Positions 4,350-35,621 of a stretch of 64,000 nt of DNA are shown here, one piece after another (within the stretch, counting starts at the first letter, position 1; every line of letters begins with the position of its first letter). A program made the translations under genes and the position numbers. This DNA comes from Acidobacterium sp. (GTDB lineage: Bacteria; Acidobacteriota; Vicinamibacteria; Vicinamibacterales; UBA2999). The notes under the pieces are model-generated. The model had not been told where the DNA came from and did no database searches. It saw only the letters and a list, made by a program, of their open reading frames with translations. The DNA lies in the NCBI GenBank assembly GCA_002737365.1, contig NSIL01000004.1, forward strand, positions 1 through 64,000, written 5' to 3'.

Positions 4350-6119
4350 GTGAACCGACAACCGCGGGCATTGCTGAGCGTTCTGCTGTTGGGCTTGATC
4401 GCCTTCATGGGCTGGCGCTGGTGGTCCAGTCAGCAGGATCACGCCGACCAGGGGACCGAAATCGTCTTCTCGGACGTCAGCACCCGCGGCGGCGTGCTGA
4501 CGTCGTCGTTGCGCAGCGAACCCCGCTCGTTCAACCGGTGGGTCGATCGCACTTCCCCAACAGTCTTCATGTCGCACCTGATGCAGAGCACGCTGGTTCG
4601 CATCAACCGCTCGACGCAGGAGGTCGAACCAGGGCTGGCCGAATCCTGGACGGCCTCGGCCGACAACCGCACTTTCACGTTGACGTTGCGCGAGGCAACC
4701 TGGTCCGACGGCACGCCGTTCACCTCGGCCGACGTCGTCTTCACCTTCCAGGCCATTTACGATCCGAAGGCCGGCAGCATCCTGGCCGGCTCGCTGCAGG
4801 TCAATGGCCAGCCACTCGTGGTGACTGCGCCAGATGCCCGAACCGTCGTGATCGGCTTCCCGGGTTCTTTTGGCCCCGGCATTGCCATACTCGACAACCT
4901 TGTCCTGGCGCCGAAGCACAAGTTGCAGGCGGCGCTGGCCGCGGGCACCTTTGCACAGACGTGGGGCGTGGCGACCTCGCCGGACCAGCTCGTGTCACTC
5001 GGACCGTTCGTGCTTGCACGCTACGAGCCGGGGCAGCGGCTGGTCTTCGAGCGCAACCCGCGCTACTGGAAGAAGGATGCGGCCGGCGTGGTGCTGCCGT
5101 ATCTCGATCAGATCGTCCTGGACGTGGTGCCCGATCAGGACGCCGAACTGGTGCGCCTGCAGGCTGGGCAGATCGACATGCTGCAGCAACAGGTGCGCCC
5201 CGAGGACATTGCCACGCTACGGCCATTGGTGGACCAGGGAAAGTTGCAGTTGCTGGAACTGGGGGTCGGCACCGATCCCGACCTGTTCTTCTTCAACCTG
5301 CGGCCCGAGCGCTGGGCCAAAGACCCTCGCGGCAGCTGGATCATGCGCCGCGAGTTCCGCCAGGCCATTTCTCATGCCGTCGACCGCGAAGCGTTCGCCA
5401 ACACCGTCTTCCTCGGCGCCGGCGTGCCGATTTGGGGACCGATTACCCCCGGCAACCAGCAATGGTTTTCACCCAACGTGCCGCGCTACAGCTTCTCGGT
5501 CGAGCGTGCCAAGGCGCTGCTGGCCGGCCTGGGCCTGGCCAATCGTGACGCCGATGAGTGGCTCGAGGACGAGAAGGGCACCGAAGCCCGGTTTACGTTG
5601 CTGACCTTTCGCGGCAACACCTCGCTCGAGCGCTCGGCCACGGTGCTGCGCGAAGACCTCCGGCCGATCGGCATTGCCGTGGACGTGGTCGCCCTCGAGC
5701 AGGGTGCCCTCATCGAGCGCATGCTCAAGGGCGACTTCGAGTCGATTTTCTTCTTCTTCTCGTCGAGCAGTTTCGACCCGGCCATGTCGCCGGACTTCTG
5801 GCTCAGTTCAGGCTCTGGACACATCTGGAACATCGGCCAGGCCACACCCGCCACTGAGTGGGAGAAACAGATTGACGACCTGATGCACCAGATGACGGCC
5901 AGCGTCGCCCCGGCCGAACGCAAGCGGCTCTTCGACCAGGTGCAGAACATCTTCGCCGAAAACCTGCCGGCCATCCACTTCGTGGCGCCGCGGATGTACA
6001 TCGGCGTCAGCTCGCGCGTCAGTTCGCTGTCGCCGTCGATTCTGCGGCCGCAGTTGCTGTGGGCCGCCGACACCATTACCGTTCGTTCACCCCCAGTCAC
6101 AGGGCAGGGCGGGCGGTAG
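4350..6119 (+). CDS. Peptide/nickel-type ABC transporter substrate-binding protein
   Basis: A 589-residue solute-binding protein of the SBP_bac_5 (DppA/OppA) family. It begins with GTG at 4350, after the purine-rich stretch aggacaag. The N-terminus has one hydrophobic segment (LLSVLLLGLIAFMGWRWW) without a lipobox Cys, so it is probably membrane-anchored or exported. Family features are the early PRSFNRWV and LVRINRSTQEVEPGLAESW blocks, the WSDGTPFTSADVVFTF block and the late RQAISHAVDRE block. It should capture oligopeptides or a similar ligand in the periplasm. Two permease genes follow immediately, so the three form an uptake operon. No ATP-binding subunit gene is present; the ATPase must come from elsewhere or be shared. 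Confidence 0.88.
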   Translation: MNRQPRALLSVLLLGLIAFMGWRWWSSQQDHADQGTEIVFSDVSTRGGVLTSSLRSEPRSFNRWVDRTSPTVFMSHLMQSTLVRINRSTQEVEPGLAESWTASADNRTFTLTLREATWSDGTPFTSADVVFTFQAIYDPKAGSILAGSLQVNGQPLVVTAPDARTVVIGFPGSFGPGIAILDNLVLAPKHKLQAALAAGTFAQTWGVATSPDQLVSLGPFVLARYEPGQRLVFERNPRYWKKDAAGVVLPYLDQIVLDVVPDQDAELVRLQAGQIDMLQQQVRPEDIATLRPLVDQGKLQLLELGVGTDPDLFFFNLRPERWAKDPRGSWIMRREFRQAISHAVDREAFANTVFLGAGVPIWGPITPGNQQWFSPNVPRYSFSVERAKALLAGLGLANRDADEWLEDEKGTEARFTLLTFRGNTSLERSATVLREDLRPIGIAVDVVALEQGALIERMLKGDFESIFFFFSSSSFDPAMSPDFWLSSGSGHIWNIGQATPATEWEKQIDDLMHQMTASVAPAERKRLFDQVQNIFAENLPAIHFVAPRMYIGVSSRVSSLSPSILRPQLLWAADTITVRSPPVTGQGGR

Positions 6120-6125
6120 ACCGGC

Positions 6126-7094
6126 ATGGGACGCTACCTCCTGAGGCGTCTCGGCTTCGCGCTGCTCCTCGTCCTGGTCGTCTCGTCGGCGTCGTTGCTG
6201 CTCACGCGGCTGGCGCCCGGGGACGTCACCACCGAGCAAGCGCTCGTCCTCGATCCCGAGGCGCGCGCCAGGCTGCGTGCCGAGCTGGGCCTGGATCGAC
6301 CGCTGGCCGTCCAGTACCTGACCTGGCTTGGTGGCGTGGCGCGACTCGACTTCGGCCGCTCGCTGTTGTACTCGCGGCCGGTCAGCACGCTGGTCGGCGA
6401 GCGCGCCCTCAACACCGCCGTGCTCGCCGGCGTCGCGCTGCTGCTGGCCACAGTGATCGGCCTCCCGCTCGGTGCCTATTCCGGCAGCCAGTCGCGCGGC
6501 CTGGGCCGCGCCGTGGTGCGCGTGTGCTCGGTGATCGCGCTGTCGGTGCCGCCGTTGATCGGCTCGCTGGCGCTGGTCTTTCTCGCCGCTCGTACCGGCT
6601 GGTTGCCAGTCGGCGGCATGACCTCGGCATCCGGCATGGACCAGGCGTGGCCCCAGTGGCTGGCGGACCTGGCCAGGCACCTGCCGGTTCCGGCACTCGC
6701 GCTCGCGCTGCCACTGGCCGCGACCCTCGAGCGGCTGCAGTCAGAGGCCATGGTGAAGGCGGTTCACGAGCCGTTTGTGGCGGCCAGCCGGGCTCGCGGC
6801 CTGGGGCCGATACAGGCCGTGATCCGACATGCGTGGCCCGTCTCGTTGCGGTCCGTCCTCGGTCTCTACGGCGTGATGATCGGCGCCCTGTTCAGTGGTT
6901 CGTTCGTGGTCGAGGTGGTGACATCGTGGCCGGGCCTCGGCCGCTTGATGTACGACGCCCTCAAGGCACGTGACTTGTATTTGGTGGCCGGCTGCGCCGC
7001 CAGCGGCGCGTTCTTCCTCGCCGCCGCGACGCTGCTGACCGATGTTCTGCTGGCGTTTGCCGATCCGCGCGTGCGTTCGGAGGAGGCCCAGTGA
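6126..7094 (+). CDS. ABC transporter permease, DppB/OppB type
   Basis: 322 residues with an N-terminal transmembrane helix (GFALLLVLVVSSASLLLTRL), a periplasmic loop with a typical EQALVLDPEARARLRAELGLDRPLAVQYLTW-type stretch, and a bundle of further helices. The coupling loop EPFVAASRARGLGPIQAVIRHA contains the EAA-type motif that contacts the ATPase. It starts 6 bp after the binding-protein stop codon and overlaps the next permease by four bases (GTGA), which implies translational coupling. It forms one half of the membrane channel. The length is normal for the family. Confidence 0.9.
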   Translation: MGRYLLRRLGFALLLVLVVSSASLLLTRLAPGDVTTEQALVLDPEARARLRAELGLDRPLAVQYLTWLGGVARLDFGRSLLYSRPVSTLVGERALNTAVLAGVALLLATVIGLPLGAYSGSQSRGLGRAVVRVCSVIALSVPPLIGSLALVFLAARTGWLPVGGMTSASGMDQAWPQWLADLARHLPVPALALALPLAATLERLQSEAMVKAVHEPFVAASRARGLGPIQAVIRHAWPVSLRSVLGLYGVMIGALFSGSFVVEVVTSWPGLGRLMYDALKARDLYLVAGCAASGAFFLAAATLLTDVLLAFADPRVRSEEAQ

Positions 7095-8014
7095 CCCGCC
7101 GTGCCGCCTGGTTTGTGGTTGTCCTCACAGCCTTGTCGCTGGCCGCGCCCATGCTCGCGCCGTACCCCGCCGGCCAGGGTTTCCGCGATTTCCTGCACGC
7201 GCCCCCCATGCGGCCTTATCTCGAAGGACTCGCGCCGGTCGTGCATCCCATCGTGCTGGCCGACCGTCTCGAGCAGCGCTTCGAAGCGGACCAGTTCCGC
7301 ACCATCCCACTGCCATGGTTTGGTGGCACGGTCGATCAACCGGTCTTCCTGCTGGGCGCCGACAATTTTGGCCGCGATGTCCTGTCTCGTCTGCTCTATG
7401 GTGCGCGCACCTCGGTCGGACTGGCGTTGTTTGCGACACTCGGCGCCGTCGTGATCGGCGCGCTCGTGGGCGCGTGGGCTGGACTGCGTGGCGACTGGGT
7501 CGACGGGGCCGTCATGCGGGTGGCCGATTTCGTCCTGATCCTGCCGGTGATCTATGTCGTGCTGGTGTTGCGATCGGTACTGCCGCTGGTGTTGCCCTCG
7601 TCCACCGTCTTCATGCTGGTCGCGGGCATTTTCGTCGCGGTTGGTTGGCCCTTCGTCGCCAAGGGCGTGCGCGCCATCGTCGCGGCCGAACGCGACCGTG
7701 AGTACGTGCAGGCCGCCCGCTCGCTCGGCGCCGGACCGGGGCGCATCCTCGTGCATCACCTCATTCCCGCTTGTTCGGGACACTTGATCGTGCAAGCCAC
7801 GCTGTTGCTGCCCGGCTTCATTCTCGCCGAGGCCACGCTGTCGTTCGTCGGACTGGGATTTCCCGACCCGGTTGCGAGTTGGGGCACCATGCTCGCCGAG
7901 GCGGGCAACTACAACGCCGTCGCCAGATTTCCCTGGACCCTGGCGCCAGCCGTTGCCATCTTTGCAATCGTCCTCGCCACCAATCTGATCGCGGCTCCAA
8001 GCCGAGAGTCCTAA
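7091..8014 (+). CDS. ABC transporter permease, DppC/OppC type
   Basis: 307 residues starting with GTG at 7091, overlapping the stop of the previous permease. It begins with one helix and a periplasmic segment, then shows the DppC hallmark LGADNFGRDVLSRLLYGARTS. The coupling-loop sequence REYVQAARSLGAGPGRILVHH follows. It pairs with the DppB-like subunit. The next gene on the same strand is a protease lipoprotein with no transport link, so the ATPase genes (DppD/DppF type) are absent from this cluster. Confidence 0.9.
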   Translation: MTRRAAWFVVVLTALSLAAPMLAPYPAGQGFRDFLHAPPMRPYLEGLAPVVHPIVLADRLEQRFEADQFRTIPLPWFGGTVDQPVFLLGADNFGRDVLSRLLYGARTSVGLALFATLGAVVIGALVGAWAGLRGDWVDGAVMRVADFVLILPVIYVVLVLRSVLPLVLPSSTVFMLVAGIFVAVGWPFVAKGVRAIVAAERDREYVQAARSLGAGPGRILVHHLIPACSGHLIVQATLLLPGFILAEATLSFVGLGFPDPVASWGTMLAEAGNYNAVARFPWTLAPAVAIFAIVLATNLIAAPSRES

Positions 8015-8059
8015 AAGCGTGACATTCCACCGTGGTACGGGGGTTGCATTCACTTTGGC

Positions 8060-9514
8060 ATGAGAAAAGGAACCTGCTTCCTGGTTGTGGCCCTGCTGCT
8101 GGCGACGACCGCCTGCGCCACCAATCCCGTGACGGGCAAGAGCCAGATGTCGTTGCTCAGCGAGGCCGAGGAACTCGCCATCGGGCAACAGCAGGACCTT
8201 GAGATTCGCCGCGAGATGGGAGTCTACGACGATCCCCGGCTGCAGGCCTATGTCACGGAGGTCGGCCAGGACCTGGCGCGCGTCTCGCATCGCCCCAGCC
8301 TCCCCTGGACGTTCACCATTGTCGACAGCCCGGCCATCAATGCGTTCGCGTTGCCGGGCGGTTATATCTATGTCACGCGCGGCATTCTTGCCTACCTGGA
8401 TGACGAATCGGAATTAGCCGGCGTGCTCGGCCATGAGATCGGCCACGTTACGGCGCGGCACGCGGCGCAGGCCTACACGCGGCAAGCGCAGGCGAGCCTC
8501 GGCCTGACGGTTCTCAGCATTTTCGTGCCCGGCATGCAGCCGTTCACGGAACTTGGCTCAGCGGGCCTCGGCGTGTTGTTCCTGAAGAACGATCGCGCCG
8601 CTGAACTCGAAGCCGACCGACTGGGCGTTGAGTACGGATCCGGTGCCGGGTGGGATCCGACCGGTGTGCCGCGGTTCCTGGCCACGCTCGCGCGCGTCGA
8701 TGCGCTCAGTGAAGGCGGCGTGCCCAACTGGCTGTCGACGCATCCGGCGCCCGAGTCGCGCGTGGGTCGCGCCGAACCGGTCGCCGGGAAGTTCGCCTCG
8801 ACTAATGCCACCAAGAAGAATCGCGACGTCTACCTCGATCGCATTGCCGGCCTTCTGCACGGTGACGATCCCAAGGACGGCATCGTGCGCGGCAACGTGT
8901 TTCTGCATCCGTCGCTGCGGCTCGGCCTGACCTTTCCGGACGGATGGGAAGTGATGAACTCACCTGCAGCCGTCATGGCGCGCGAACCCGGCACCGAACA
9001 CTACATGGTCTTGCAGGAAGTGGAGCGGCCGCGTGGAGGCGCGGGCGGCAACTCGTTGGGCGACGTGGCGGTCGCTGCCATGCGCCAGTCCGGGTACAGC
9101 GTCGTCGAGGGCCGCTTCGAGCAGATCAACGGCCAGGATGCCCACGTTGGCCTCTATCGGGGCACCGCCAAGGGCACCGGCAAGGTGCTGATGCGCGCGG
9201 CGCACATTGCGATGGGCCGCCAGACGTATGCCGTCGCGGGATTCGCGCCCGAGGCGGAGTTCAACCTGGTCGATCGCGAGGTGCTGTCGGCGATTCAGTC
9301 GTTTCGCACCCTGACCCCGGCCGAGGCCTCGCGAGTGCGGCCGAACCGCGTCGACTTCTACGTGGTGCGGCCCGGTGATTCGTGGCAATCGATCGCCGTT
9401 CGCCAGGGCAAGAACATCGTCAACGCTGCGACGCTGGCGATCATGAACGACCACGAGGTCAGTGCGCAGCCGACCACCGGCGAGCGCATCAAGATCATCG
9501 TCGAAGGAGTCTGA
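8060..9514 (+). CDS. M48-family lipoprotein metalloprotease with a C-terminal LysM-like domain
   Basis: 484 residues. The signal peptide ends in a lipobox (LLATTACAT), so it should be a lipoprotein. The zinc site HEIGH is at residues 125-129, in the context LAGVLGHEIGHVTARHAA, and EADRLGVEY supplies the third ligand region. This matches the periplasmic BepA/LoiP-like M48 proteases involved in outer-membrane protein quality control. The middle region (~280-420) is not recognised. Residues ~430-484 (FYVVRPGDSWQSIA through IKIIVEG) look like a LysM module that would bind peptidoglycan. MtgA follows, so an envelope role fits. Confidence 0.9.
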   Translation: MRKGTCFLVVALLLATTACATNPVTGKSQMSLLSEAEELAIGQQQDLEIRREMGVYDDPRLQAYVTEVGQDLARVSHRPSLPWTFTIVDSPAINAFALPGGYIYVTRGILAYLDDESELAGVLGHEIGHVTARHAAQAYTRQAQASLGLTVLSIFVPGMQPFTELGSAGLGVLFLKNDRAAELEADRLGVEYGSGAGWDPTGVPRFLATLARVDALSEGGVPNWLSTHPAPESRVGRAEPVAGKFASTNATKKNRDVYLDRIAGLLHGDDPKDGIVRGNVFLHPSLRLGLTFPDGWEVMNSPAAVMAREPGTEHYMVLQEVERPRGGAGGNSLGDVAVAAMRQSGYSVVEGRFEQINGQDAHVGLYRGTAKGTGKVLMRAAHIAMGRQTYAVAGFAPEAEFNLVDREVLSAIQSFRTLTPAEASRVRPNRVDFYVVRPGDSWQSIAVRQGKNIVNAATLAIMNDHEVSAQPTTGERIKIIVEGV

Positions 9515-24669: not shown

Positions 24670-24741
24670 CGCGCACGCGGTATTTCACGACCGTCGTGCC
24701 GTCAGCCGGGATGGTAGGATTTGGGCGTCAGGAGATCGCCT

Positions 24742-26064
24742 ATGACCCGCCTTGTGACGTTTGCCGCCGCCTTTTTACTGTTCGTCAGCCTCGCCGACCC
24801 GCGGCCCTCGGCCCAGGGCGGCTCTTTGGCCGCTCAGGCCGGCGCCGACGCGGCGCTGGTGGCCAAGGCCAAGGGCATCCACGAGCGCGTCATCACGCTC
24901 GATACGCACGACGACATCAATCCGGATAACTTCACCCGCCAGCAGAACTATACCCAGCGCCTTGAGACCCAGGTCAATCTGCCGAAGATGGTCGAGGGCG
25001 GCCTCGATGCCTCGTTCTTCATCGTTTACGTCGGCCAGGGGCCGCTGACGCCAGAAGGCTACGACGGCGCCTATAAGCAGGCGGTCGCCAAGTTCGACGC
25101 CGTGCATCACCTGACCAAGGAAATTGCGCCGGGCCAGATCGAGCTGGCGCTGACCGCCGCCGATGTGAATCGGATCGCCAAGTCGGGCAAGAAGGTCGCG
25201 CTGATCGGCATCGAGAACGCCTACTCACTCGGCACCGACATCACGCGCGTGAAAGAGTTCTACGACCGCGGCGGCCGTTACATGTCGCTCGCGCACAACG
25301 GCCACAGCCAGCTCGCTGACTCCAACACTGGCGAGCGTGACGGCAAGTGGCTGCACAACGGCTTGAGCGAGCTGGGCCAGCAGGCGATTGACGAGATGAA
25401 CAAGTGGGGCATCATGGTCGACCTGTCGCACCCGTCGAAGGCTGCCAACCTGCAGGCGATCGCCCTGTCGAAGGCGCCGGTCATCGCCTCGCACTCCGCG
25501 GCGCGCGCGCTCGCCGACCACAGCCGCAACATGGATGATGAACAGTTGCTGGCGTTGAAGAAGAACGGCGGCGTGATCCAGACGGTGGCGTTTGCCAGCT
25601 ACGTGAAGGTCAACAAGCCCGATTCGCCCGAGCGCACGGCGGCCATTCTCGCCCTGCGGAAGACCGTCGGCCTCAGTGCTCCCGGCGGCGGCGGTGGTGG
25701 CGGCGGCCGAGGCGGCCTCAACGCGCTGTCGCCTGAGCAGCGCGCCAAGTTCGATGCTGGCGTGGCCGACATCGACAAAAAGACCCCCGGCGATCCGCGG
25801 GCGACGGTCGCCGATTTCGTCAACCACATCGATTACCTCGTCAAGAAGATCGGCCTCGAGCACGTCGGCATCTCGTCGGATTTCGACGGCGGTGGTGGCG
25901 TGACCGGCTGGAACGGCGCCGAAGAGACGTTCAACGTGACGCTCGAGCTGGTGCGGCGCGGCTACACCGAAGAGCAGATCGGCAAGATCTGGAGCGGCAA
26001 CCTGCTGCGCGTGATGGCCGACGTCGAGAAGGTCGCAAAGCAGATCCAGTCGGGGCGCCACTAG
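24742..26064 (+). CDS. Secreted membrane dipeptidase (M19, renal dipeptidase family)
   Basis: 440 residues from ATG at 24742 with Shine-Dalgarno AGGAG (24730-24734) and signal peptide (LVTFAAAFLLFVSLADPRPSAQ, partly: FAAAFLLFVSLAD). M19 features are the zinc ligands in LDTHDDINPDNF and GIENAYSLG, then YMSLAHNGHSQLADS, SHPSKAANLQAIA, VIASHSAARALADHSRN and the late GISSDFDGGGG. Relative to the family, a Gly-rich insertion (about eight Gly, residues ~315-325) interrupts the region before LNALSPEQ. It should split dipeptides in the periplasm. moxR starts immediately after its stop codon, so it may head that operon. Confidence 0.92.
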   Translation: MTRLVTFAAAFLLFVSLADPRPSAQGGSLAAQAGADAALVAKAKGIHERVITLDTHDDINPDNFTRQQNYTQRLETQVNLPKMVEGGLDASFFIVYVGQGPLTPEGYDGAYKQAVAKFDAVHHLTKEIAPGQIELALTAADVNRIAKSGKKVALIGIENAYSLGTDITRVKEFYDRGGRYMSLAHNGHSQLADSNTGERDGKWLHNGLSELGQQAIDEMNKWGIMVDLSHPSKAANLQAIALSKAPVIASHSAARALADHSRNMDDEQLLALKKNGGVIQTVAFASYVKVNKPDSPERTAAILALRKTVGLSAPGGGGGGGGRGGLNALSPEQRAKFDAGVADIDKKTPGDPRATVADFVNHIDYLVKKIGLEHVGISSDFDGGGGVTGWNGAEETFNVTLELVRRGYTEEQIGKIWSGNLLRVMADVEKVAKQIQSGRH

Positions 26065-27105
26065 GTGCACGCGGAGCTCCAGGAGGCGATTGACTTTCAC
26101 GTCGCGGTCATCGCCGAAGGCAGCAAGGCCCTGGTCGGCTACGACACCGCGAAGGCGGTGGCGAACGTGGTCTTGCTGTCCGAGATTCCGACGACCTATG
26201 ACAAGCGCTCGGAGCGCCAGGTCAACGCCGGTAACCTGTTGCTGAGGGGGGTCCCGGGAGTCGGCAAGACGTTTTTCGGCGTGATCCTGTCGGCGATCAG
26301 CGATGCCAAGTTTGCGCGCATCCAGGGCCGCGCCGACCTGCAGCCGACCGAGGTGGTGGGCTTCCAGATGATCAACCCGTCAACTGGCGAGCTGGTGACC
26401 GAGTTTGGTCCGATGGCGTCGGCAGAGGTGATCCTGCTGGACGAGATCAACCGCATCCCCCTGAAGTCGCAAAGCGCGTTTCTCGAAGCGCTGCAGGATC
26501 GCACCATCACCGTTGGCAAGATGACCTACGAGCTGCCGACGTTTAGTTTTGCGATTGCCACCATGAACCCGGTGGAGTTAGGGCAGGGCACGTTTCCGCT
26601 CTCGGAAGCCGCCACCGACCGCTTCGCCGCCATGATCAACATCGGCTACCTGCCGCCCGAAGAAGAAGAGAAGCTGGTGAACTTCGACTTCAAGCAGGTG
26701 AGGCTCAACCCGTTGCTGTCGAAGGAGCGGATTGTCCAGTTGCGAGCGGTGATCAGCAAGGGTGTGTTTCTCCACGATCGGCTCGGCCGCTACATTCAGC
26801 GACTGGTGGCGGCGACGCGGCCGTACAATGAAGACACCGACTGGCGGCACCACTCCGCGTCGGACCTGGTGGAGCGGGGGGTGGACCTGGGCGCTTCGCC
26901 CCGCGCGATCATCTGCTGGAGCCGGCTGGCCAAAGTCTGGGCGCTGCTGCAGCACCGGCGGGCCGAGGTCTATCCCGAAGACATCCAGGAGCTCGCGCCG
27001 TTTGTGCTGGGCCATCGCATCTGGCTGGGGCCGCACGCGGCGGCTCATGGCCTGACGGCCGAGGCGGTGATTCGCGACGTCATCGCGCAGGTGCCGGTGC
27101 CATGA
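26065..27105 (+). CDS. MoxR-family AAA+ ATPase
   Basis: 346 residues. It starts with GTG directly after the stop of the dipeptidase gene. Walker A is LRGVPGVGKTFF, Walker B LLDEINR, sensor 1 IATMNP. MoxR proteins work as chaperones with von Willebrand factor A (VWA) partners to activate or insert cofactors into enzymes. Here four genes follow in a tight chain with overlaps: an Ig/membrane protein, a VWA protein, a small anchored protein and another VWA protein. That is the order mxaR-A-C-K-L of methanol dehydrogenase maturation clusters. The usual DUF58 gene (mxaS) is missing. A general MoxR/Bat cluster is the alternative reading. Confidence 0.9.
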   Translation: MHAELQEAIDFHVAVIAEGSKALVGYDTAKAVANVVLLSEIPTTYDKRSERQVNAGNLLLRGVPGVGKTFFGVILSAISDAKFARIQGRADLQPTEVVGFQMINPSTGELVTEFGPMASAEVILLDEINRIPLKSQSAFLEALQDRTITVGKMTYELPTFSFAIATMNPVELGQGTFPLSEAATDRFAAMINIGYLPPEEEEKLVNFDFKQVRLNPLLSKERIVQLRAVISKGVFLHDRLGRYIQRLVAATRPYNEDTDWRHHSASDLVERGVDLGASPRAIICWSRLAKVWALLQHRRAEVYPEDIQELAPFVLGHRIWLGPHAAAHGLTAEAVIRDVIAQVPVP

Positions 27106-28259
27106 AAACGATTCTGGTGATCGTGGCGCTGATGCTTCCGGCGGTGGCACCGGCGCAAGGTGTGGACCCGATTCGCTGCTGGTGGCAGTCAAGCGCCGGG
27201 GCGATCACCATCGGTGAATCGTTTGACGTGGTGTTGACGTGTGCCGTGATTGAGACTGCGTCGATGCAAGTCGTGGCTGACGAATCGCGGCTTGGGGTTG
27301 CCTCCATCCAGATGGCACCGTTCGAGATTCTTGGTGGCTCGCATCCGGCCGACGCGCACCGCGACCAACGCCGGTTCTTTCAGTATCACTACCAGTTGCG
27401 GTTGATTGGCGCCGACGCTATTGGTCGAGATGTCAACGTGCCGGCGCTGCAGATTCCGTATCGCGTGCACAGTCGCGTCGGCGCAGCCGCCGCGCTCGAG
27501 GGCCGCGACCTCACCTACCTGATGCCGGCGCTGCCGATCAAGGTGCTGTCGTTGGTGCCCAGGGAGGCCATCGACATCCGCGATGGTTCGGATGCGAGCC
27601 TGGGCGCGGTCGAGTCGTTGCGGTTCCGCAGCAGCCTGTTTCAGATCCTGGCGGTCGCCTTCGGTGCGATGGCTGCGGTGATGGCCGTCATGGCGCTGAT
27701 GCCGTTGACCCGCGGCACCGGCAAGGCTGGTGTCGTCGAGAGCGACCGTCTGCCGGACCGCGCGGTGGCACGGCATGCCGCTCGTGCCTTGACCGAGGCT
27801 CAGGCGGCCGCGACGGGCGATGGGTGGACGGACGAAGCCGTGGCGAAGGCGCTGGCGTCGGTGCGCGTGATCGCGGCCCTGGCGATCTGCCAACCCGTGA
27901 GCGAGAAGATTCTGGCCGCCACGGCGCCGGTGCCTGAAGGCCGGCTTGCGGTCAGTCACGGCTGGCTGAGAACACGCCGAGCGTCAGTGTCGAGCCCGGT
28001 GACCGCCGCTGATCTGGCCAAGTCGCTGACGCATCGGCAACACCTTGCAGGCCTGCAGTCGGCGCTGACCGACCTGACGGCGGCGTTGTATCGACAGACG
28101 CCGAGCCGCGATGCGGTGACCCTGAACGAGGCCGTGCGGCACGGTCTCGAAGTGGCGGATGATCTGCAACGCGACCGCAGCGCTTGGAGCCGCCTTCGCC
28201 AAGGCTTCCCCCTTCGCCGCGGCTACGGGGGACGGGTCGGCGGCCAAGGCGCATCATGA
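27102..28259 (+). CDS. MxaA-like / BatD-like periplasmic-facing membrane protein
   Basis: 385 residues, ATG in a 4-bp overlap with moxR. A signal peptide (ILVIVALMLPAVAPAQG) precedes a beta-rich extracytoplasmic domain (~20-170; e.g. ITIGESFDVVLTCAV, then FFQYHYQLRLIG). One membrane helix lies at ~183-205 (ILAVAFGAMAAVMAVMALM), followed by an alpha-helical cytoplasmic part. Position after moxR, length and topology match MxaA, which acts in metal insertion into PQQ methanol dehydrogenase; BatD is the other candidate. The sequence itself is too divergent for a firm name. Confidence 0.6.
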   Translation: MKTILVIVALMLPAVAPAQGVDPIRCWWQSSAGAITIGESFDVVLTCAVIETASMQVVADESRLGVASIQMAPFEILGGSHPADAHRDQRRFFQYHYQLRLIGADAIGRDVNVPALQIPYRVHSRVGAAAALEGRDLTYLMPALPIKVLSLVPREAIDIRDGSDASLGAVESLRFRSSLFQILAVAFGAMAAVMAVMALMPLTRGTGKAGVVESDRLPDRAVARHAARALTEAQAAATGDGWTDEAVAKALASVRVIAALAICQPVSEKILAATAPVPEGRLAVSHGWLRTRRASVSSPVTAADLAKSLTHRQHLAGLQSALTDLTAALYRQTPSRDAVTLNEAVRHGLEVADDLQRDRSAWSRLRQGFPLRRGYGGRVGGQGAS

Positions 28260-29353
28260 TCTCGGCGCTGACCGCGGTGGCCCAGTCGGTGGCTGCTGAG
28301 TGGGCGGTGTTTGATTTCGCCGGCTTGCAGTTCTGGCGTCGCGATACCGGCCGCCTGGCCCTGCTCGCCGTCGCCGGCATCGCGATCCTGATGCTGCTGC
28401 TCCGCGCCGCGGCCGCCCGCAAACCCGGACACCATCAAATCATCCTGCCGGCGTTACTGCGCTCGATGCCAGGCGCGCGCCTGGCTTGGACGCGTCACCT
28501 GCCGGTGGTGCTGTTTGTCGCCGCACTGCCGGCCGCATTGCTGGCGTTTGCCGATCCGTTTTCGTCGCTGGTGGTCGAGAACGTCACTTATCCCGGCCGT
28601 CGCATCAGCCTGATGATCGACGCGTCCGACAGCATGCAGACCGCGTTCACGGCCGCCACGCTCAATACCCGCAACACCGTGCAGCCGGCCTTCTTCACGA
28701 CCATCGCCGCCGCCGAGCGGTTCGTGCACTTGCGGCGCAAGGGCCGCCATCGAGATTTGATGGCGCTGGTTGAGTTCGGCAGCCGCGCCTACGTTATTAC
28801 GCCGTTCACCAGCGACTATGACAACCTGTTATTGAGCATGTCGCTGATTGGCGATCCGGTGGAGTTTTCGCAGTTCCCAGAGTCGGGCACCGTCATTGCG
28901 AGCGCGCTCGAGGAGAGCATCGAGATCTTCAAGGCCTTCAACTATCTCGAGGCCTCGGGCAACCTGATGGTGATCTTCACCGATGGCGAAGACACCACGT
29001 CGATTGTCCACGGCCGCAGCCTAGACGACATCCTGAAGAGTGCGGTCGACAACAAGATCCCGTTGTTCTTTGTCCGCACCAACTACAACAAAGAGTTCGG
29101 CGAAGGCATTCCCGACGCGAAGTGGCAGGCCGCGGTCGAGAAGACTGGCGGCCGCTACTACGTGGCCAAGAACGAGGCCAGCCTGATCGCCGCCGTCGAA
29201 GACATCGATCGCGAGGCCCTCGGCACCATCGAGACGCGCCAGTATTCGAGTCAGCAATCCCGCTTCAGTCTGTTTGCGCTCACCGCCGCCGTGCTGTGGA
29301 CATCAGCCGCCGGTCTCAAGCTCGCGACGCCCTGGTTTGGAAAATTGCCATGA
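28256..29353 (+). CDS. VWA-domain membrane protein, MxaC-like
   Basis: 365 residues from ATG at 28256, overlapping the previous stop (ATGA). Two hydrophobic segments (~45-65 LALLAVAGIAILMLLL; ~85-105 LPVVLFVAALPAALLAF) precede a VWA domain. The MIDAS metal site is DASDS in SLMIDASDSMQ, with MVIFTDGEDTT later. A final helix lies near the C-terminus (LFALTAAVLWTSAAGL). The topology and place between the MxaA-like and MxaK-like genes fit MxaC. It should interact with the MoxR ATPase and present a substrate protein. Confidence 0.75.
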   Translation: MISALTAVAQSVAAEWAVFDFAGLQFWRRDTGRLALLAVAGIAILMLLLRAAAARKPGHHQIILPALLRSMPGARLAWTRHLPVVLFVAALPAALLAFADPFSSLVVENVTYPGRRISLMIDASDSMQTAFTAATLNTRNTVQPAFFTTIAAAERFVHLRRKGRHRDLMALVEFGSRAYVITPFTSDYDNLLLSMSLIGDPVEFSQFPESGTVIASALEESIEIFKAFNYLEASGNLMVIFTDGEDTTSIVHGRSLDDILKSAVDNKIPLFFVRTNYNKEFGEGIPDAKWQAAVEKTGGRYYVAKNEASLIAAVEDIDREALGTIETRQYSSQQSRFSLFALTAAVLWTSAAGLKLATPWFGKLP

Positions 29354-30054
29354 TCAATAGCGCCGTCATCACCCGCATGCTGATCGCGATCGTTTTGTCG
29401 GCGGCCGCGTGGCTGTCCTGGTCTGAAGCCAGGCTGGCGGCGCGAGTGGCCGACGCTCGACAGCAGATGGCGACCCTGCAGTTCCAGATCGACGACACGC
29501 TGAAGCCGGCCGCGTCACTATCGGATTACATGCCTGGTGATCAGGGCAGCTTGTCCAGTGACATCCGGCGCATTCGCGCGCGGGTGGCGTATTGGATTGG
29601 CGGCTACGACGATGTGATAGAGGAGAGGAGTCAGGAGCTGGATCCAGAGGTTCTGCTGACGGCGGCCAACGCGGCGTTCCGCGTCAGCGAACGCGAGGCG
29701 GCCGCGCCGCAGCAGCAACTGGTGCAGCAGCTGGATGGGGTACTGCAGGCCTATGCCGCAGTATTGAAGGCATCGCCGCGTCATGCCGATGCCGCCTACA
29801 ACTACGAGTACGTGTCGCGCGTTCGCGACAAGGTCGCGTCTCGGGTGGCCGGCAAGACCCCGCCGGTCGCCGTGGCGAAGGCGCGTGGCCGCGCTGGGGA
29901 CTTACCCGAGGGCAACACCATCCACGGCCGTCCCGGCGGTCCGCCTCCCGATGCCCCGACCGAGGAGTTCCAGGTGATTGCGCCCATGGAATACGGCGAC
30001 CGCGAAGCCCAGCCAGAGGCCACGCCTGGCGGGAAGATCCAGCGAAAAGGGTAA
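29350..30054 (+). CDS. Small membrane-anchored protein, MxaK-like position
   Basis: 234 residues from ATG at 29350 (ATGA overlap with the VWA gene). One N-terminal helix (MLIAIVLSAAAWLSWSEARL) anchors a helical domain with paired-helix, TPR-like content (RIRARVAYWIGGYDDVIEE; QAYAAVLKASPRHADAAYNY). A Pro- and Gly-rich tail follows. Size and gene order match MxaK, whose biochemical role is poorly known. Identification rests on synteny more than on sequence. Confidence 0.55.
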   Translation: MINSAVITRMLIAIVLSAAAWLSWSEARLAARVADARQQMATLQFQIDDTLKPAASLSDYMPGDQGSLSSDIRRIRARVAYWIGGYDDVIEERSQELDPEVLLTAANAAFRVSEREAAAPQQQLVQQLDGVLQAYAAVLKASPRHADAAYNYEYVSRVRDKVASRVAGKTPPVAVAKARGRAGDLPEGNTIHGRPGGPPPDAPTEEFQVIAPMEYGDREAQPEATPGGKIQRKG

Positions 30055-31140
30055 GTGCGCGAAGGACTGCAATTCGGCGCGCCACAGTTCCTGTGGCTGC
30101 TGGCCGCACCGGCCGTGCTGTTGGTGGCCTGGTGCTGGCGCGTGTGGCGCCGGTGGTCTGACCTGCGGAGCCTGCGCGCGCACCGCACCATTCCGATTCG
30201 CGAACGATTCGGCGTGGCAGGTGACCTGCCGTTCTGGTTGTGCCTGCTGCTGGCATCGGCCGCACTGATCATCGCCACCGCTCGCCCCCAGGGCGTCACC
30301 ACCGTCGTCGGCCGCGCCGGCGTCGACATCGTCGTGCTGCAGGATGGTTCGGCCTCAATGCACGTGACCGACGTCCCGGGCAATCGCTGGCAGCGGGCGA
30401 TGACGTTTCTCCGCCTGCTCGGAGATTCGCTTAGCTGGAACGACGACCGCCTGGCGCTCACGGTCTTCGCGCATATTGCCACGCCGCAGATCCGGTTGAC
30501 GCGCGATCCCAACACCGTGTTCTTTTTTCTCGATCACCTGTTCGTGCGTCCACCGTTTCGCTTGGACGACGACACGACGTGGGACACCAACTTGGAGCAG
30601 GGCATTGCCTGGGGCTTGCGGCTGATCGAGAAGGATCGCGAGATTCACGGCCCCTCGCCCAATGCCAAGTTGTTCGTGATGCTGTCGGACGGCGAGTCCT
30701 GGAGCGGCGAGGTGGCACGCTCAATCGAGCTGGCCGGCCAGGCGCATGTGCCGCTCAATGTCATTGGTGTCGGCACGCTGTCGGGCGGGATGCTGCCGGT
30801 GAGCAGGGACGCTGACGGCGCCGAAGTGCCGTCGCCTGGACGCTCGCGACTTGATCGCCCGTCCCTTCAGCGCATTGCCGCCGCCGGCGGCGGTCAGTAC
30901 TTCGAGCTGGGTCGCGACGTTGATCGCGAAATTGCCAACGCCATCATCGATGCCGGCCGCCGCCAGGCACCGACGACGACTGAAGAAGGGCAGGTGCAGG
31001 AACTGTATTGGCGCTTCCTCGCCGCCGGTGTGGCGCTCGCCGTGTTCGGCACCGTGTTCCTGCGCGAGCGTGCCGAATTGGGGTTGCAGCTGGTCGCCGC
31101 CCTGGCGACCGCCATCGCCCTTTCGTCCGTCCTCTGGTAA
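30055..31140 (+). CDS. VWA-domain membrane protein, MxaL-like
   Basis: 361 residues starting with GTG directly after the MxaK-like stop. Membrane helices lie at ~12-28 (FLWLLAAPAVLLVAWCW) and ~60-78 (FWLCLLLASAALIIATA). The VWA domain has MIDAS DGSAS in VVLQDGSASMHV and the second loop VMLSDGESWSG. A C-terminal helix (FLAAGVALAVFGTVFL) follows. BatB and MxaL share this plan. A TAAACT box (31138-31143) formed partly by its stop codon is a promoter candidate for the next gene. Confidence 0.75.
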   Translation: MREGLQFGAPQFLWLLAAPAVLLVAWCWRVWRRWSDLRSLRAHRTIPIRERFGVAGDLPFWLCLLLASAALIIATARPQGVTTVVGRAGVDIVVLQDGSASMHVTDVPGNRWQRAMTFLRLLGDSLSWNDDRLALTVFAHIATPQIRLTRDPNTVFFFLDHLFVRPPFRLDDDTTWDTNLEQGIAWGLRLIEKDREIHGPSPNAKLFVMLSDGESWSGEVARSIELAGQAHVPLNVIGVGTLSGGMLPVSRDADGAEVPSPGRSRLDRPSLQRIAAAGGGQYFELGRDVDREIANAIIDAGRRQAPTTTEEGQVQELYWRFLAAGVALAVFGTVFLRERAELGLQLVAALATAIALSSVLW

Positions 31141-33036: not shown

Positions 33037-33480
33037 ATGACCAGACGGTTAATCTTCGTTGCCGCCTTCACGGTGGCAGCTTCAGTGGCAATGGTCGGCG
33101 CGCAGACGCGCCAGTACCGCACACGCCTCTCGCCGGTCGCCCTCGACGTGGCCATGCAAGCCGCGATTGCCGGCTCCGGCTCGGTGACGGCGACCCTCAA
33201 CGGCACCACCCTGACGCTGACCGGCAACTACACTGGCTTCAGGACGGCGTCGACAGTCGCGCGCGTGCATCGCAGTCCGCGGACCGCCATGCGCGGTCCG
33301 GCGATCGGCGACCTTAAGATCACGCCGGGCACGAGCGGCACCATCAGCGGCACGCTTGAACTGACGAAAGACCAGGTCGACGACCTGGCCAACGGACGAA
33401 TCTACATTCAACTGCATAGCGAGAAGGCGCCAGACGGGAACCTCTGGGGCTGGCTCTTCATTCAAGAGGGCAAGAAATGA
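33037..33480 (+). CDS. Exported CHRD-domain protein
   Basis: 147 residues with signal peptide ([17 protein letters not shown]). A single CHRD domain: [20 protein letters not shown], then an alternating beta pattern ending in [20 protein letters not shown] with the conserved His of this fold. CHRD domains occur in chordin and in many secreted bacterial proteins, without a known catalytic role. It overlaps the PQQ dehydrogenase gene by four bases (ATGA), so the two are translated together. It may be a periplasmic partner of that enzyme. Confidence 0.85.
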
Positions 33481-35621
33481 GGACGTGGATTAGTTTCGCC
33501 GTTCTGGTGCTCATTTCCGGCGCCCACCTCACGCTCACCGCCACGCAGACGCCGTCGCCGGCGGTCTACACCGCCGCACAGGCGGATGCGGGTCAGGCGT
33601 CGTATCAAGCCAACTGCGCCAGTTGCCACCAGCCCACGCTCGTGGGGCAGAACGAAGCGCCGGCCCTGGCCGGTGCCAACTTCATGACGACGTGGCGCGG
33701 CCGGACGACGAAGGATCTGGTCGAGTACATGGCGGCGACCATGCCGCCCGGAAAGCCGAGCCTGGGTGAAGCGGAGTACCTCAACATCTCCGCCTACATC
33801 CTGCAGTTCAACGGCGCGGCCGCGGGTGCGCAGCCGCTGGTCGCCGCTACCGCGACGCCCATCGGCACGGTTGCCACCGGCCAGCGCGCTGCCGCCAGGC
33901 CTGGCACACCAGCACCTCCAGCCGGCGCCGCACCGCCGGCCCGTGCTGCCGTCGCGCCACCGCGCGGCCACTCGGTGAAGGGCGAAGTGAAGAACTACGT
34001 GCCGGTCACCGACGCGATGCTGAAGAACCCCGAGCCGGGCGACTGGCTGATGGCGCGCCGCAATTACCAGGCGTGGAGCTACAGCCCGCTCGCAGAGATC
34101 ACCACCAAGAACGTGAAGGACCTCAAGCTGGCGTGGAGCTGGTCGATGAACGAGGCGGGCGCCAATCAGCCGATGCCGCTCGTGCACAACGGCATCATGT
34201 ACCTGGCCCACACGCTCAACATGGTGCAGGCGCTCGATGCCGCCACCGGCGATCTGATCTGGGAAAACCAGGTCGGTCCGAACGCCATAGTCGGTTCGTT
34301 CGGGTCGATGCGCAACATCGCGATTTACCAGGACAAGATCTTCCTTTCGACCACCGACGCCAAGCTGTATGCGCTCGATGCCCGGACCGGGGCCGTGGTC
34401 TGGACCGTGACCGTGGCCGACAACACCAAAGGCTACTACCAGACCAGCGGTCCGCTGGTGGTTCGCGGCAAGGTGATCCAGGGGTTACAGGGCTGCGATC
34501 GCTTCCGCGCCACGGAGCGCTGTTTCATCAGTGCCTACGATTCAAGCACCGGCAAGCTGCTGTGGAAGTTCCATACCGTCGCGCGAACCGGCGAACCGGG
34601 CGGCGACACCTGGGGCGCACTGCCTGACGGGATGCGCGCAGGAGGTGATACCTGGATCGTCGGCAGCTACGATCCCGACCTCGATCTCATCTACTACGGT
34701 GTCGCTCAGGCCAAGCCGTGGATGCCGGCGAGCCGCGGCACCAAGGTCAGTGACGCGGCCCTCTACACCGGCTCCACGGTGGCGCTCAGAGCCGAGGACG
34801 GCTCGCTGGCATGGCACTACCAGCACATTCCCGGTGAGACGCTCGACCAGGACGAGGTCTACGAGCGCGTGCTGGTCGACAACGGTCCCGAGAAGGCGGT
34901 CTTCACCATCGGCAAGGCCGGCATCCTGTGGAAGCTCGAGCGCAAGACCGGCAAGTTCCTGGGCTACCAGCAGACCGTGTTCCAGAACATGTTCGACAAG
35001 ATCGATCCCGAGAAGGGCACGCCGACCTACCGGCAGGACATCATTGACCAGAAGATCGACGAATGGCTGGCGGTCTGCCCGAGCACCGAGGGCGGGCACA
35101 ACTGGCAGGCGATGACGTATCACCCGCCGACCCACCAGTTGATCATTCCGCTCAGCCAGTCGTGCATGGAGATCGTCGCCCGCAAGGTGGAGTTCGCCGA
35201 AGGCTCTGGCGGTACCTCGGCCGCGCGTAAATTCTTCGAGATGCCCGGCAGCGACGGCAACGTCGGCAAGCTGCTGGCCATCGATGTCACGACCATGAAG
35301 GAGACGTGGAGTGTGCAGCAGCGAGCGGCCTACCTGACCGCCGCGCTCAGCACCGCTGGCGGCGTGATGTTCATCGGCGATCTGGATCGCCAGTTCCGCG
35401 CCCACGATGTGAAGACCGGCGAAGTGTTGTGGTCGGCCCGGCTCGGCACCGCCGTGCAGGGTTTCCCGGTCACCTTTACCGCCAACGGCAAGCAGTATGT
35501 CGCCGTCACGACCGGCGTCGGCGGCGGCAGCCCGCGTGTCGTGCCGCGGACGATCACGCCGGAGATCAACCCGCCGGCCAACGGCCACACCTTGTACGTC
35601 TTCGAGCTCCCGAAGCGCTAG
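33477..35621 (+). CDS. PQQ-dependent alcohol dehydrogenase with N-terminal cytochrome c
   Basis: 714 residues, secreted ([17 protein letters not shown]). Residues ~25-120 are a cytochrome c domain with CASCH and a distal Met region (ATMPPGKPS). A Pro/Ala linker follows, then an eight-bladed propeller with [21 protein letters not shown] and tryptophan-docking blades. Active-site sequence [11 protein letters not shown] has Asp457 (catalytic) and Asp459; an Asp two residues after the catalytic Asp is the mark of lanthanide-dependent PQQ enzymes such as Xox[10 protein letters not shown] lies in the PQQ region. It should oxidise an alcohol or aldehyde in the periplasm and pass electrons to its own heme, then to the diheme cytochrome encoded downstream. 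In quinohemoprotein alcohol dehydrogenases the heme domain is usually C-terminal. Confidence 0.9.

Follow-up and report, generated by a model that had tools for sequence, protein, structure and literature searches.

A diverged MoxR-VWA operon copy without its own DUF58 gene in Vicinamibacterales, with mxa gene order and Bat-like sequences

What is the role of a compact gene block in an acidobacterium when its genes follow the order of the methanol dehydrogenase maturation genes and a PQQ dehydrogenase gene lies nearby? Such a block is found in the window analyzed here, by which we mean the whole stretch of DNA of 64,000 nucleotides. A sequence-only reading had described it as an mxaR-A-C-K-L-like maturation block lacking mxaS (DUF58), which might insert metal into a cytochrome-fused, possibly lanthanide-dependent enzyme.

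Gene content, distribution and selection of the block

The predicted series of a MoxR protein, an Ig/membrane protein, a VWA protein, a small anchored protein and a second VWA protein was confirmed at positions 26065-31140. All five genes are on the + strand, and their junctions measure 0-4 bp, being either ATGA overlaps or abutting ends:

26065..27105, + strand, MoxR-type AAA+ ATPase (R), 346 aa; Pfam AAA_3/AAA_lid_2
27102..28259, + strand, A protein with Ig-like and transmembrane parts, 385 aa
28256..29353, + strand, C protein, membrane-anchored VWA, 365 aa; Pfam VWA, MIDAS DASDS intact
29350..30054, + strand, K protein, small and anchored, 234 aa; profile match to MxaK
30055..31140, + strand, L protein, membrane-anchored VWA, 361 aa; Pfam VWA, MIDAS DGSAS intact

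The Walker A (GVPGVGKT) and Walker B (VILLDE) motifs of the ATPase are intact. The A protein consists of a signal peptide, an Ig-like beta-sandwich (20-150), a long membrane helix (167-204) and a helical C-terminal part, and its predicted structure (pLDDT 84) had Ig-like folds as top structural matches (Z ≤8.8). The K protein has an N-terminal membrane helix followed by a short helical, TPR-like region (model pLDDT 74). Pfam gave no family above cut-off for either A or K. A fold search with K returned generic helical-repeat matches only (Z ≤9.2) and was set aside as evidence.

Relatives of the block were gathered by a scan with a MoxR alignment, which found 101 loci, of which 80 were kept. Nearly all of these were labelled Acidobacteria or Vicinamibacteria, the few other labels resembling misnamed bins, and R identity across them was 73-99%. 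These relatives support a Vicinamibacterales-type organism, in agreement with the probable acidobacterial origin suggested from sequence alone. The six-gene version of the operon (MoxR-DUF58-A-VWA-K-VWA, or RSACKL) was seen here only in Vicinamibacterales. K was present in all 61 loci that have C and L, and the MIDAS motif (DxSxS) was kept in 66 of 66 C homologues and 58 of 58 L homologues. The most specific marker was the A protein, detected in 12 of 247 Acidobacteriota genomes, all within Vicinamibacterales, in a survey that scored seven candidates per genome and could therefore miss distant copies. In the deeper relatives L127, L129 and L132, just MoxR and DUF58 of the block were recognized, A, C, K and L not being found next to them.

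All five block proteins are under purifying selection, with dN/dS values against a Baikal congener of 0.028 (R), 0.16 (A), 0.072 (C), 0.119 (K) and 0.114 (L). Because the gene set and order are identical in dozens of genomes and dN/dS stays at 0.03-0.16 throughout, the block is not a chance arrangement.

A second copy of the operon and the loss of DUF58

The source genome (3.05 Mb, 97% complete) contains a complete second operon, locus L036, on contig C45 (9193-15245) in the order MoxR-DUF58-A-VWA-K-VWA. Identity between the window and L036 copies is 80% for MoxR and 44% for the first VWA proteins, and the dN/dS values of the window copy are close to those of the L036 copy; judged from these sequences, the window copy seems to be a functional operon rather than a remnant. 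No DUF58 gene was found inside the window block. The reported absence of mxaS/DUF58 thus stands for the block but not for the genome, in which four DUF58 genes scored over the cut-off, one of them in L036. Since L036 and other MoxR loci on contigs C52 and C29 carry DUF58 genes, DUF58 is gone from the window block yet present in the cell.

Among the 74 loci having both R and A, DUF58 was present in 65. The nine loci lacking it were the eight window-type loci of the genus and L119, from another genus, and wherever the second copy in one of these genomes was located, that copy bears DUF58. The window block is a diverged duplicate of the six-gene RSACKL operon that has lost its own DUF58. It probably functions without DUF58, or borrows it from the complete second copy; the DUF58-less copy could also have taken on a role needing no DUF58 at all.

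A different arrangement was observed in the genome of L119, where the two incomplete copies look complementary. One copy (L073) is R-S-A-C, including DUF58, with no K or L found beside it; the other (L119/L146) is R-A without S, plus C-K-L on a separate contig.

Affinity to Mxa and Bat operons

As Pfam and NCBIfam returned no curated profiles for true MxaA, MxaK and MxaL, Mxa profiles were built from real mxa operons on six plasmids (Methylobacterium, Methylocystis, Paracoccus). The Bat reference operons were those of Bacteroides, Parabacteroides and Prevotella. Compared with the real mxa operons, the proposed gene order was borne out: R-(S)-A-C-K-L equals the mxa order, the full set being found in the order-wide family and in L036, while the window copy lacks S. 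The individual proteins gave another picture. By hhalign, R scored 281 with Bat and 144 with Mxa, C scored 140 with BatA and 91 with MxaC, and L scored 179 with BatB and 41 with MxaL. For S, which is missing from the window copy and was therefore compared as a family, the scores were 124 with Bat and 106 with Mxa. Single-sequence and profile comparisons concur that R, DUF58, C and L are nearer Bat than Mxa, whereas A had no profile match to MxaA (hhalign probability <1%) and no match to BatD.

K matched MxaK with an hhalign probability of 92-94% and a score of about 51, against a shuffled-column maximum of 19.7, and its profile-profile probability with BatC was 16%. This signal lies largely or partly in a TPR-like motif, which is also weakly shared with BatC, and one BatC scored equally in a simple hmmsearch; K is therefore likely, rather than proven, to be homologous to MxaK. 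As for the second VWA protein, DxSxS was absent from MxaL in all six reference operons but is kept in the window L protein. MxaF, MxaJ, MxaG and MxaI were not seen among the neighbouring genes scanned, which include one for a divergent PQQ/cytochrome protein. The description as an Mxa-like maturation block was hence upheld in its gene order and its combination of a MoxR protein with two anchored VWA proteins, and less surely in the MxaK-like profile of K. It was not supported by the Bat-like character of MoxR, DUF58 and both VWA proteins, the MIDAS motif of L, the lack of detectable similarity between A and MxaA, the missing S of the window copy and the lack of methanol dehydrogenase genes beside the block. 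The sequence-only reading had named two results that would jointly refute it, better matches to Bat proteins and no genomic association with PQQ enzymes; the former was obtained for four of the six families.

These scores, together with a MIDAS motif in both VWA proteins (BatB also retains it) and no neighbour conserved across the order, are what would be expected of a general stress module of the Bat kind, tied to no single enzyme. Such operons, known also from Leptospira, have the order BatA-BatB-BatC-BatD with a long BatD, and this order was not found in the block. K sits between the VWA genes, an arrangement shared with mxa but not with Bacteroides Bat operons, in which the small protein follows them; no large BatD-like protein is encoded; K is nearer MxaK than BatC in profile-profile comparison; and trees do not put the block with Bat. 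We consider a Bat-kind stress module unlikely. In the VWA tree, C joined MxaC (support 90/78), but a grouping of C with BatA was not rejected (AU test, p 0.18), and L joined BatB at 39/63 with no alternative rejected by AU tests. From these trees, Mxa and Bat affinity cannot be distinguished. A first VWA tree that grouped C with MxaC and L with MxaL was dropped, as row removal and AU tests gave no resolution, and a MoxR tree was not trusted for the placement of MxaR, which was on a very long branch.

From its mxa order and its sequences nearer Bat, the block is therefore best regarded, on present comparisons, as a distinct lineage of the Bat/Mxa kind. The open-access literature yielded no described counterpart. 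The working of Mxa- and Bat-kind helper operons is poorly understood, and a lineage that combines the mxa layout and intact MIDAS motifs with a naturally DUF58-less duplicate could reveal their essential parts; it could also tell whether the mxa layout predates methanol oxidation.

Proposed function and neighbouring enzymes

With moderate confidence, we favour the reading that the block is an envelope protein-remodelling module of lake and soil acidobacteria, represented in the window by a diverged, selected RSACKL duplicate without its own DUF58. This reading starts from the observed gene content, order, duplication, DUF58 loss, selection and motifs. A cytoplasmic MoxR ATPase ring would, on the analogy of NorQ/NorD and Mxa, act via the two VWA proteins anchored in the membrane, C and L; the Ig-domain membrane protein A and the small anchored helical protein K may serve as adaptors or scaffold. 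The clients thereby opened or matured would be membrane or exported proteins, and an M19 dipeptidase and a PQQ/cytochrome c enzyme encoded nearby are candidates for this role. Intact motifs, membrane anchors and purifying selection would fit a MoxR-VWA remodelling module of this type. In the MoxR/VWA pair NorQ/NorD, the VWA MIDAS has been proposed to dock on the client, with ATP hydrolysis supporting iron insertion (PMC9976466), and MxaACKL have been credited with calcium insertion (PMC6028718). The likeness of the block to NorQ/NorD and RavA/ViaA is one of presumed mechanism, a MoxR ATPase coupled to a client-docking VWA partner, rather than of sequence comparison, and these two systems differ in having one ATPase, one VWA partner and known clients. 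What counts against the remodelling reading is that we know of no proven cofactor role for Bat-type systems, which in sequence are at least as close to the block.

The neighbouring genes that bear on the identity of a client are as follows:

24721..26064, + strand, M19 (renal-type) dipeptidase; Pfam M19, E 5e-91; abuts the block upstream
33477..35621, + strand, PQQ-family dehydrogenase with an N-terminal cytochrome c; Pfam; TIGR03075, 396 bits
35837..36808, + strand, protein with two cytochrome c domain matches; Pfam; downstream of the PQQ gene

Within the genus, the M19 dipeptidase is the most tightly linked neighbour, and the PQQ enzyme comes second. In seven of seven window-type loci, the M19 gene abuts or directly precedes R on the same strand, and it is possible that the dipeptidase is a member of the same transcript. 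This constant position is what would suggest an envelope module dedicated to the dipeptidase. The linkage is, however, confined to one genus and to the window-type copy, no other block type having an M19 gene beside it. No M19 enzyme is known to need helpers of the MoxR-VWA type, and we regard a dedicated M19 module as highly improbable. As no neighbour is common to the blocks across the order, no client is indicated.

The PQQ dehydrogenase gene placed 2.3 kb downstream on the same strand by the sequence-only reading was recovered. Within the genus, a same-strand orthologue lies downstream in all six window-type loci whose contig reaches far enough, so that the proposed co-occurrence was seen there. 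The neighbourhood of the L036 copy is conserved in the genus about as well as that of the window copy. Between the block and the PQQ gene are a DUF3500 gene, an opposite-strand gene and a small secreted-type gene, a set that differs among congeners. A cytochrome c protein also follows the PQQ gene in L061. Outside the genus, the edge of a PQQ-family gene was within 1 kb in 5 of 73 loci (about four independent cases). About 0.35-0.42 would be expected from a whole-genome PF01011 density of about 0.3-0.36 per 100 kb (P between about 1e-4 and 1e-3, according to whether L095 and L101 are treated as a single case). Across the entire flanks, 690 kb held 7 PQQ-family genes, as opposed to 2 in the 1,560 kb of control sequence (p 0.005), both tests involving interrelated loci and control regions that are not strictly random. 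High PQQ-gene density as the cause of this adjacency was not borne out by sampling and by the whole-genome count, which left a modest excess. In a Pfam neighbour scan against random genes, 5 of 116 neighbours were PQQ members and PQQ was outside the 25 commonest families of the control, a count not used as a test because four of the five had been added by hand as second-nearest genes. Haem-motif neighbours within 3 kb showed no excess (10 of 67 loci versus 10.5% in controls). The link to PQQ genes is thus weak but not nil, the excess being significant yet small, and a complete lack of association, which would have spoken against an Mxa-type role, does not strictly hold.

The window PQQ protein itself scored below the TIGR03075 cut-off of 480 bits. 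The Cys-Cys pair of MxaF is missing from it and the Glu and Asn metal positions are changed, while the catalytic Asp is kept. XoxF enzymes have Asp-x-Asp at the catalytic site, and the window protein likewise has an Asp at +2 of its catalytic Asp; the whole pattern is the same in four orthologues. The combination of Cys-Cys, Glu, Asn and Asp with the extra Asp that marks XoxF-type lanthanide dehydrogenases was not found in this protein. Among the solved structures closest to it are those of a PQQ alcohol dehydrogenase (4cvb) and a sorbose dehydrogenase (4mh1). Most sampled genomes of the order carry PQQ-family dehydrogenase genes. Among 60 relatives of the order, none had PqqC and none had PqqE over the cut-off; a phylum-wide search found PqqC over the cut-off in 13 genomes, all from other orders. 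This agrees with a report that, within Acidobacteria, the PQQ importer PqqU occurs only in Vicinamibacteria, without PQQ synthesis genes, and that these bacteria are PQQ scavengers (PMC12124388). The suggestion of metal insertion into a lanthanide enzyme was not supported by this neighbour, Asp-x-Asp notwithstanding, nor by relatives devoid of PqqC and true PqqE.

Maturation of the neighbouring PQQ/cytochrome c dehydrogenase, by calcium or lanthanide insertion or another activation, as MxaACKL act for methanol dehydrogenase, would draw on the mxa gene order with its MxaK-like K, on the conserved orthologue in the genus, on the excess of PQQ genes elsewhere and on the reported scavenging of PQQ. 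Against it, no PQQ gene lies within 1 kb of the block in 93% of the loci outside the genus, and the PQQ genes that do occur near them vary in side, strand and subfamily. Moreover, many genomes of the order hold PQQ-family genes without the block, one genome (G024, 84% complete) has the block and no TIGR03075 match, the intervening genes vary within the genus, and in the neighbour both the Cys-Cys pair and the canonical Glu and Asn ligands are missing. We find this reading decidedly unlikely. A further one is that the block represents a third Mxa/Bat lineage, with the mxa layout and without methanol dehydrogenase. It would be a client-flexible cofactor or metal inserter that has repeatedly paired with different PQQ enzymes and whose duplicates share one DUF58 in trans; we see this as speculative and quite unlikely. 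Whichever the client of the envelope remodelling module that we favour, the locus calls for caution, as an mxa-like gene order and a nearby PQQ gene are insufficient to call a methanol dehydrogenase maturation system. Beside the second copy, at 6116-9071 of the L036 contig, two divergent genes for CxxCH proteins (a long haem-type protein and a beta-propeller) were observed, and this pair is conserved in the genus.
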